Shown piece after piece: positions 14-1,759 of a DNA stretch of 60,380 nt (within the stretch, counting starts at the first letter, position 1; each line of letters opens with the position of its first letter). The DNA comes from Desulfobacteraceae bacterium (GTDB taxonomy: Bacteria; Desulfobacterota; Desulfobacteria; Desulfobacterales; JAABRJ01), in the NCBI GenBank assembly GCA_022340425.1, contig JAJDNY010000004.1, forward strand, positions 1 through 60,380. The letters run 5' to 3'. Below the pieces are notes generated by a model. The model was not told the DNA's origin, searched no databases, and saw only the letters and a program-made list of their open reading frames with translations. The position numbers were made by a program, and so were the translations under genes.

Positions 14-613
14 ATGTATGCATTGGCGGTAAACGGGAGCCCGCGCAAGGAAGGAAACACCGAACTGCTTCTGAGGGAAGTCCTCACCGAACTGAAAAAT
101 GCCCGCTGGGAAACGGAACTGGTAAAGGTTGGCGGAACGTCCATTCGCGGTTGCATTGCCTGTCAGAAGTGCTTTGAAAACAAGGACAACGAATGCTCCG
201 TCAAGAAGGACAAATTCAACGATGTCTTTTCTAAGATGCTCAAGGCCGATGCCATGATTTTGGGCTCGCCAACCTATTTCGCGGCTGTATCGGCTGATTT
301 GAAAGCCCTGATCGAACGGGCGGGTTATGTGGCCTATGCCAACGATCACGCTTTTTCCGGAAAAATAGGGGCGGCGGTGGTGGCGGTCCGGCGCGGCGGC
401 GCCACCCATGTGTACGACACCATCAACCACATGTTCCAGATGTCCAGGATGATCATCCCCGGCTCGACTTACTGGAATATGGGTTTTGGCCTGGGCAAGG
501 GTGAGGTTCTGAAAGACGACGAGGGGTTGACCAACATGCGCCATTTGGCGAAATGCATCGATTGGCTTGGCAAGGCCATTGTGCCCCATATGGGCAACTA
601 CCCACGGTCTTGA
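14..613 (+). CDS. Iron-sulfur flavoprotein (Isf-like) / NADPH-dependent FMN reductase family
   Basis: 199 aa. The start is supported by GGAG seven bases upstream. The N-terminus (AVNGSPRKEGNTELLL, residues 5-20) is the phosphate-binding loop of flavodoxin-like NAD(P)H:FMN reductases, and GSPTYFAA further on is the second FMN-contacting segment. Cysteines 47, 50, 53 and 61 form the compact CX2CX2CX7C pattern known from archaeal and anaerobe iron-sulfur flavoproteins, so an FMN plus a 4Fe-4S cluster is likely. Such proteins are cytosolic electron-transfer or oxygen/peroxide-detoxifying flavoproteins of anaerobes; the partner here is unknown. It stands alone, directly followed by a repeat copy that begins in its stop codon region. 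Family assignment is confident; the exact role is not. Confidence 0.85.
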   Translation: MYALAVNGSPRKEGNTELLLREVLTELKNARWETELVKVGGTSIRGCIACQKCFENKDNECSVKKDKFNDVFSKMLKADAMILGSPTYFAAVSADLKALIERAGYVAYANDHAFSGKIGAAVVAVRRGGATHVYDTINHMFQMSRMIIPGSTYWNMGFGLGKGEVLKDDEGLTNMRHLAKCIDWLGKAIVPHMGNYPRS

Positions 614-744
614 CGGTTCCGCAAAAATTCCAATTTCTGCGTTGCGCTGCATCTCGAGGTCGCTGCGGCGGCATAGAGATGCACGCCTCACTCCTCGAGA
701 TTTGCACGCCTTGAAATTGAACTCTTAAGCAACTCAACCGTCAA
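610..744 (+). repeat. MITE-like intergenic repeat, copy 1
   Basis: A 135-bp unit bounded by a perfect 9-bp inverted end (TTGACGGTT at 610-618, AACCGTCAA at 736-744). The interior shares long stretches with 16616-16744 and, in reverse complement, with 48885-49010: for example CTGCGTTGCGCTGCATCTCG in copies 1 and 2, followed in all three by GCCTCACTC- or GCCTCACTT-like and GAGATTTGC- blocks. It encodes no credible protein, so it looks like a non-autonomous, MITE/REP-type element. The family name is unknown to me. Confidence 0.8.
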
Positions 745-754
745 TCCCCGCAGA

Positions 755-1080
755 TAGGACGTTTTTTTAAGAGGACACCCGGATTTAGACCGCCTGGTGA
801 AGCAGGTGTTTTATGTCCCGTCGTCCCGGGCCGAGCATCGCAGCAGCCGGCGATAAAAGCCCTGTGGCTGTCTGAGCGCAAGCGAGTTCCACAGGGCCCG
901 CCGGCTAGGAGAAGCGCAGGGCAGCCCGCAGGGCCCCGGGACGCGGGCGGCTTCTTTTGGTTCCTTTTCTTGTCCGCACAAGAAAAGGAACACAGACCAA
1001 TGGGAGTTGTAAATCCCGGTCTATTGCCGGGATGCCCGGCAAAGTTCCTTTCCGACAAACACCGCACGGTCGGGGTGAAA
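755..1080. other. Highly structured intergenic block (possible structured RNA or repeat)
   Basis: No credible gene. The DNA contains nested complementary arms: 822-830 with 935-943 (9 bp), 845-852 with 899-906 (8 bp) and 859-867 with 889-897 (9 bp), all co-axial. These are followed by a perfect 13-bp hairpin (TTCCTTTTCTTGT at 961-973, loop CCGC, arm 978-990) and an 8-bp hairpin (1024-1031 with 1035-1042). The 13-bp hairpin has no T-run after it, so it is not a standard terminator. From memory, similar blocks with a TTCTTTTGGTT...AAGAAAAGGAA hairpin recur between genes in other proteobacteria. The transcribed strand, if any, cannot be told. Confidence 0.5.
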
Positions 1081-1150
1081 TGTTTTTTACGATAAAGTCT
1101 GATTTTTGACTTACCGCTTTCTCAAAATTGACAGCAAGCGCAATTCGTTG

Positions 1151-1179
1151 TTGAATGTATCTAAATTAAGATCTATATT
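1151..1179 (+). promoter_or_regulatory. Candidate sigma-70 promoter and operator of the toxin-antitoxin pair
   Basis: TTGAAT (1151-1156), a 17-bp spacer, then TATATT (1174-1179), 41 bp before the antitoxin ATG. A short dyad (ATCT...AGAT) lies in the spacer, where an autorepressing antitoxin would be expected to bind. Seen by eye only. Confidence 0.5.
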
Positions 1180-1220
1180 CGGTACTAAAAACAAACCCGA
1201 ATTGATCCAAAGGTGCCAAA

Positions 1221-1484
1221 ATGAAACCCCTGAGTGTTTCCAGGAATATCGTTTCACTGTCGGAATTTAAAGCCAAAGCTTCTCAAATACTCCACGACGT
1301 ACAGAGCTCGCATCATCCACTGGTCATCACCCAAAACGGCAAAGCAGCCGCCGTCCTGATTTCACCAGCCGATTTCGATTTCCTCACGGAAAAGGCCCGT
1401 TTCATCAGCGCCGTCCAAAAGGGCTTGGCGGATGTTGAAAATGACCGGATCGTGCCGGATGAAAATCTGGACTTGGAGATATGA
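1221..1484 (+). CDS. Phd/YefM-family antitoxin
   Basis: 87 aa. The N-terminal half (SVSRNIVSLSEFKAKASQIL, then PLVITQNGKAAAVLISPADF) is the Phd/YefM DNA-binding and dimerisation fold: a conserved 'piece' that sets up the helix, then the 'ITQNGKAAAVL' strand. The acidic C-terminal tail (residues 65-87) is the region that normally wraps and neutralises the toxin. It overlaps the next gene by 4 bases (ATGA), the usual translational coupling of antitoxin and toxin. It probably represses its own promoter at 1151-1179. No key element looks missing. Confidence 0.9.
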   Translation: MKPLSVSRNIVSLSEFKAKASQILHDVQSSHHPLVITQNGKAAAVLISPADFDFLTEKARFISAVQKGLADVENDRIVPDENLDLEI

Positions 1485-1759
1485 AGCTATTTTGGACCGA
1501 AACAGCCCAACGGGACCTTCAGAAAATCCGAAGGTATATTGCCGCCGACAATCCGACCGCAGCCAAACGATGGGTCGAAAAATTGAGGAATCGCGCGGTG
1601 CAGGCCCTCACGGCGCCGCTGAGCGGCCGCAAGGTGCCAGAATTTTTGCGGGACGACATCCGAGAGCTGATCGAGGGGAACTACCGCATCGTATATCAGG
1701 TGTTTTCAGATCGTCTGGTGATCCTGACCGTTTTTGAAGGGCACGCGTTTTCCCAATAG
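1481..1759 (+). CDS. ParE/RelE-family toxin
   Basis: 92 aa, the usual length for the ParE/RelE fold. It begins KLFWTETAQRDLQKIRRYIA, has the central LRDDIRELIEGNYRIVYQV segment with the conserved arginine and tyrosine before the last strands, and ends ILTVFEGHAFSQ. The N-terminal A-x-x-DL-x-x-I-x-x-YIA helix resembles ParE (gyrase-directed) more than ribosome-dependent RelE, but sequence alone does not settle the target. Coupled to the antitoxin by an ATGA overlap. The pair sits between a repeat-rich region and polA, consistent with horizontal acquisition. Confidence 0.88.
   Translation: MKLFWTETAQRDLQKIRRYIAADNPTAAKRWVEKLRNRAVQALTAPLSGRKVPEFLRDDIRELIEGNYRIVYQVFSDRLVILTVFEGHAFSQ

Follow-up and report, generated by a model that had tools for sequence, protein, structure and literature searches.

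An interspersed, mobile-looking intergenic element with a strand-specific fold kept across bacterial phyla

The window analysed here, a stretch of 60,380 nucleotides from a Desulfobacteraceae contig (JAJDNY010000004.1), carries near its beginning an intergenic element that occupies positions 763–1091 of the plus strand and is one of about 40 copies in the 3.97-Mb genome of 209 contigs to which the window belongs (G000). Next to it lie a gene of the NADPH-dependent FMN reductase family, a separate palindromic repeat (repeat A) and a toxin–antitoxin gene pair (Table 1). From the letters alone, the block had been described as three nested stems followed by a perfect 13-bp hairpin and a smaller one, with no gene, and had been read as a mobile or regulatory RNA-like element close to a toxin–antitoxin pair. 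Pfam confirms the Phd/YefM antitoxin and the ParE toxin, and no tie between the element and this adjoining pair was found at the window locus.

Table 1. The element, its structural parts and its neighbours, in positions of the window.
Feature	Positions	Strand	Basis
NADPH-dependent FMN reductase family gene (neighbour)	14–613	+	PF03358
Repeat A, separate palindromic repeat	610–726	+	blastn among 39 G000 loci
5′ extension of long G000 copies; short copies are without it	763–815	+	alignment of 40 copies
Conserved core common to phyla	816–993	+	alignments; short copies L024, L025 and L026 are the core without extensions
P1 5′ strand, partner 936–947	817–829	+	covariation alignments
Conserved GCCGAGC segment after the outer stem	830–836	+	alignment, by eye
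P2 5′ strand, partner 899–908 (best 845–852/899–906)	843–852	+	covariation alignments
P3 5′ strand, partner 889–897	859–867	+	covariation alignments
Most conserved internal loop, CTGTYTGAG...GCGAGTT	868–888	+	alignments
P4 small hairpin (924–927/931–934); absent from some genomes	924–934	+	alignments
P1 3′ strand	936–947	+	covariation alignments
Linker with conserved TTTCTTTTGG	948–959	+	alignments
P5 terminal hairpin, 14 bp, 4-nt loop; outward in paired copies	960–991	+	fold, covariation, pair orientation
3′ extension of long copies, holds small hairpin 1024–1042	994–1091	+	fold, alignments
Phd/YefM antitoxin gene (neighbour)	1221–1484	+	PF02604
ParE-family toxin gene (neighbour)	1481–1759	+	PF05016

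The three stems were located within 822–943 as described. The outer stem, P1, pairs 822–829 with 936–943 and is lengthened by 817–819/945–947; inside it lie the middle stem, P2 (845–852/899–906), and the inner stem, P3 (859–867/889–897). The smaller downstream hairpin is also present, whilst the terminal hairpin, P5, is perfect as claimed but 14 bp long rather than 13 (960–973/978–991). The fold of the 178-nt core consists of a closing stem, a long two-part arm, a small hairpin and this terminal hairpin; in other genomes the loop at 868–888 contains an apical stem of variable length. Such nesting had been thought unexpected by chance, and the folding energies beat those of shuffled sequences both for 755–1080 (z = −4.0 on the plus strand and −5.3 on the minus strand, none of 100 shuffles being as good on either) and for the core (z = −4.3, 0 of 200 shuffles). 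The open reading frames listed over the block (741–1067 and 811–993 on the minus strand, 957–1109 on the plus strand) look spurious, since the copies differ from one another in indels and, in one case, in the orientation of a loop.

Searching G000 with the element gave 45 rows, which reduce to 40 places once five are removed (four self-matches of the terminal hairpin on the other strand and the inverted loop of locus L027). The block is therefore not a single-copy sequence devoid of covariation, the case that would have counted against the original prediction, because it is present in about 40 places and the compensatory changes between its copies, described below, are strong. Seven of the 40 places end at the end of a contig, and the copies therefore probably break the assembly. 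Across the alignment of the 40 copies the core is mostly more than 90% conserved, and the long copies extend it by about 55 nt on the 5′ side and about 100 nt on the 3′ side. At L027 (1519–1691) the loop at the tip of the inner stem has been flipped between the two arms of that stem, a change such as template switching or recombination across the stem might produce. In G000 repeat A is often found just ahead of the element, and the two form a composite. Repeat A is itself palindromic, with ends GACGGTTCCG...CGGAACCGTC and a core TTGCGCTGCATCTCGA, and many copies of it are found in G000 and in the same-genus genome G001, also where the main element is missing.

The clearest evidence for the fold comes from covariation. 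RNAalifold, applied to 27 of the 40 aligned G000 copies (alignment A1; partial or misaligned copies were left out), gave 58 pairs, 13 of which show double changes. Among 76 copies from many genomes double changes are seen at 55 of 58 pairs, a level that none of 500 shuffles reached, and 93.8% of cells pair, falling to 40–53% when partners are slid by one to three columns; alignments A2–A4 were fitted to the model, so that such pair counts lean towards the structure. The covariation score is 0.660 compared with 0.068–0.099 for slid partners. From one genome to another most of the helix sequence is exchanged; the constant parts are CTGTYTGAG...GCGAGTT (inner arm), GCCGAGC (following the outer stem) and TTTCTTTTGG (ahead of the terminal hairpin). 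Helices exchanged to this extent are no product of the alignment. Selection acts on the fold, which compensatory change maintains across phyla.

The fold also prefers one strand. The plus strand has a lower folding energy than its complement in 21 of 27, 58 of 65 and 118 of 121 copies in three sets, the second being the first 65 of the 91 rows of A2 (full matches, used for the G-U counts too) and the third the 121 of 134 rows of A3 that are at least 150 nt long. The 326-nt block of the window departs from this pattern, its minus strand being slightly lower in energy. Cells with G-U exceed those with A-C by 60:16 and 144:48, or about three to four to one, counts with the same lean towards the structure as the pair counts. 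A DNA cruciform is ruled out by this asymmetry in energies and in G-U against A-C counts, because a cruciform would show no strand preference; the folded molecule must therefore be RNA or one specific DNA strand. Covariation and strand asymmetry together back the RNA-like character originally proposed. The asymmetry fits single-stranded DNA equally well, which brings in the possibility of an element, without any function as RNA, in which one strand forms its fold while the DNA is replicated and an enzyme that recognises hairpins cuts and pastes it, in the manner of REP/RAYT or IS200/IS605 systems.

The element is distributed widely and unevenly. A model built from the 27 G000 copies (R1) was positive in 8 of a panel of 76 relatives from the same order, mostly one genome per family: G000, G001, G002, G009, G011, G069, G070 and G071. 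G011 gave 18 weak matches (e.g. L127 3045–3116), those listed being mostly partial and covering model positions 21–99, and is possibly a distant or arm-only relative. With a broader model (R2, E ≤ 1e-5), 32 of 150 genomes in the phylum of Ralstonia, about a fifth, and 10 of 118 in that of Mediterranea were positive, the centre genome being included in both counts. A scan of public genomes with a pattern of the conserved words found at least 120 matching stretches; Ralstonia, Herbaspirillum, Gallionella, Thiobacillus, Solimonas, Haemophilus, Rodentibacter, Bacteroides and Mediterranea are among the matches listed, as are metagenome-assembled genomes labelled Nitrospirae and Veillonellales. These cross-genome matches bear out the suggestion that many proteobacterial genomes contain dispersed blocks with a similar final hairpin. 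Of the 120 genome loci listed, 80 (L131–L210) were searched with the model, as was one viral locus (L130). The chromosome at L160, titled Pseudomonas stutzeri NCTC11607, is 1.9 Mb long and of low GC, and its thr genes look like those of Pasteurellaceae, so its species label may be wrong. At the level of direct DNA similarity, the core had no match in phages, the window none among plasmids and the Haemophilus pair none in E. coli genomes; the Ralstonia pair matched 13 plasmid records in part.

In other genomes copies frequently occur as pairs with the terminal hairpins outward. For the 80 loci, using the 124 of 134 matches of at least 120 nt and neighbours within 2 kb, 36 neighbouring copies point outward, with the terminal hairpins outside, none inward and three the same way. 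In Ralstonia the pair is nested in a further inverted repeat, so that a unit of about 500–600 bp forms one palindrome. Terminal inverted repeats are clear in the pairs of Ralstonia, Sideroxydans and Thiobacillus and are not general in the single copies of G000. Some outward pairs enclose 0.5–1.4 kb with an open reading frame. Three of seven cargo proteins matched Pfam families (DUF2971 at L130, bPH_2 at L131 and HEPN_AbiU2 at L277) and four had no Pfam match; one of the seven, that of L130, also matched the PADLOC system PDC-S31. None of the seven is a recognisable transposase, and pairs enclosing such a gene were set aside as a general explanation. Other arrangements were seen as well: tandem same-direction arrays of up to five copies spaced by about 310–326 bp (L359–L362, in G134), and two copies between genes of a co-directional, NAD/ADP-ribose-looking cluster with sirtuin- and KptA-like reading frames, named by eye (L404, in G342).

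No transposase or other enzyme was found consistently beside the element. A reverse transcriptase was rejected as a general partner, as PF00078 gave no match in 12 of the 16 carriers searched, among them G000, the Ralstonia genome G077 and the single-contig G070. This makes it highly improbable that the element is a SINE-like retroposon, an RNA reverse-transcribed and inserted by a reverse transcriptase acting in trans, despite its RNA-like structured core, its many copies and its patchy spread. A Y1 transposase was likewise rejected as a general partner: Y1_Tnp was not found in carriers G009, G001, G081 and G231, and the element lies within the flanks examined at just one of 27 Y1 loci. G000 itself has two Y1_Tnp matches, the best on contig C47, which has no listed element. 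One IS200-type transposase gene does lie between two same-direction copies (L373 1338–2658, in G342; L373/L389). This gene and the outer position of the terminal hairpins in paired copies are what one would hope to see if single-stranded DNA were cut and pasted; the carriers and Y1 loci just described speak against it, and we consider that mechanism unlikely. For an element that is non-autonomous and whose core is most likely RNA, we infer that movement depends on an enzyme supplied in trans.

Evidence for mobility is indirect and comes from dispersal and from site occupancy. For 19 G000 copies the flanking sequences were compared with G001, which is 84% complete; both flanks were matched at four sites, three of them without the element. 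The L025 site measures 13 bp in G001 against about 512 bp in G000 and the L012 site 78 bp against 477 bp, whilst the L023 site has no insert; repeat A, too, is missing from the L023 and L025 sites. At the L005 site G001 keeps the start of repeat A and has no element, so this is not a clean empty site. With two genomes compared, the empty sites could reflect gain in G000 or loss in G001; taken with the dispersed copies, they suggest that the mobile part of the original prediction was sound.

A quite different possibility is that the element does not move at all and serves as a regulatory or mRNA-protecting intergenic RNA, such as a bidirectional terminator or decay barrier. Its intergenic position would suit such a role, and so would its presence inside apparent operons in Haemophilus-like genomes. 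Copies were seen between apparent operon genes, named by eye, at L197 (fabH and fabD), L160 (thrB and thrC) and L152 (purD and purH). Decayed hairpins are also kept between the convergent ubiA and proC genes of Ralstonia (identified by eye). The query for this site matched in 16 of 16 genomes, and 13 Ralstonia stretches were taken, eight of them aligned. Matches are full-length in G077, G096 and G101, and eight others examined keep reduced hairpins, so that at this site the element looks like an old resident and not a recent arrival; the reduced forms are consistent with internal deletion. Against a stationary element stand the sites empty in the same genus, the patchy presence and the lack of any fixed orientation to neighbouring genes. 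In 92 copies, scored with crude ORF calls and with the neighbour on one side undefined in 13, the missing orientation also removed a leader, terminator or attenuator of one neighbour gene from consideration. We therefore regard a non-mobile RNA as quite improbable.

The structured core might instead be a captured module, a passenger of DDE-type miniature inverted-repeat elements whose outer repeats (repeat A in G000, GGTGGTCCATC in Ralstonia) do the moving. The outer sequences do differ by genome whilst the core is common, the composite with repeat A fits, and 10-bp direct repeats flank L023 and L008. However, flanking direct repeats of at least 10 bp were found at 3 of 22 copies compared with 9.5% of cross pairs, no clear overall excess; short G000 copies are without both extensions, and a mere passenger would need no cross-phylum fold. 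This explanation seems to us less likely than not.

Rfam had no family at gathering score in the window, in keeping with the original inability to name one. At 19 member loci the only Rfam match was TwoAYGGAY (RF01731), in one arm of the Solimonas pair L207, at 54.8 bits against a gathering threshold of 43 bits. RF01731 gave no match to window positions 600–1250 at E ≤ 10 and none in G000, and by eye 816–993 contains no AYGGAY. In 24 element-bearing genomes RF01731 matched in three (30 matches in G147, 4 in G083 and 3 in G199), those of G147 mostly as outward pairs. In 23 of the 30 RF01731 loci examined, R2 gave an overlapping match in the same orientation; one of these loci (L428) is the same place as L207, a member of the R2 training set; L424, L427, L430, L441, L443, L446 and L449 have no R2 match. 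The two types share a scaffold of P1, P4, TTCTTTGG and P5 and differ in the inner arm, which in the window type has the CUGUYUGAG/GAGUU internal loop in place of the AYGGAY hairpins; the window type is also more widely spread, 21 of the 24 carriers having no RF01731 match. Thus the window copy is not a member of RF01731, yet its framework seems to be this shared scaffold. TwoAYGGAY is typed Cis-reg in Rfam, and has been listed as probably RNA and probably not cis-regulatory (PMC2864571). Its GGA hairpins have been matched, as a hypothesis, to the CsrA-binding motif in a later study (PMC4333381), and this resemblance of a related arm to the site of an RNA-binding protein is a further point against a purely single-stranded DNA element.

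Other kinds of interspersed repeat resemble the element in part. It is intergenic, palindromic, often in inverted pairs and non-autonomous. REP sequences and REPINs have these same properties, being interspersed as well; REPs are hairpins of 20–40 nt with a GTAG/GGAG foot and are associated with RAYT (Y1) transposases. The core described here, in contrast, is a 178-nt multi-branched fold, the Y1 gene is missing from several carriers, and no GTAG/GGAG foot is seen at P5, which is preceded by TTTCTTTTGG. Like MITEs, the element is short and non-coding, has inverted repeats in its paired forms and lacks a transposase of its own; unlike them, its fold is strand-specific and kept between phyla, with no consistent target duplication. 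The Pseudomonas fluorescens repeats R178 and R200, given as 101 and 320 bp in PMC2718517, are interspersed and intergenic in the same way, a likeness of description only. Relatives of the element may be present among them and among the Geobacter ‘multicopy nucleotide sequences’. No recognisable description of the element was met in the literature searched, mostly without subscription journals and in the parts of the sources available (e.g. PMC2996986, PMC2267715, PMC5217627, PMC11701678).

In conclusion, we favour, at a probability of about 0.6, a non-autonomous mobile element with a strand-specific structured core that is most likely RNA. The many copies, the one-strand fold across phyla, the empty sites and the outward pairs, sometimes with cargo, support this. 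The element is real, occurs widely, is structured, looks mobile and is new as a variant, and a function as RNA is likely. An enzyme provided in trans would copy or move the element, which would land between genes, be transcribed by read-through and then fold through its core. The scaffold of P1, P4 and P5 would present an exchangeable arm to a binding protein, the arm being the CUGUYUGAG/GAGUU internal loop in the window type and the pair of GGA hairpins in the TwoAYGGAY type. In paired copies the terminal hairpins would mark which side is outermost, and with time the palindromes of such pairs would decay by internal deletion. More tentatively, at somewhat less than an even chance, these sequences may form a class of mobile palindromic elements, so far without a name and spanning phyla, in which structured RNAs make up the arms, with exchangeable protein-binding arms on one scaffold, outward pairs usable for cargo and TwoAYGGAY as one variant.

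The work joins TwoAYGGAY, an orphan candidate RNA, to a large and mostly unlabelled set of interspersed repeats. The elements seem to break assemblies and to yield spurious short open reading frames, and their recognition would clean annotation. The invariant internal loop can serve directly as bait in a search for the protein. Should the arms be bound by RNA-binding proteins of the host, the repeats would seed binding sites across the genomes that carry them and could rewire or titrate global regulators.
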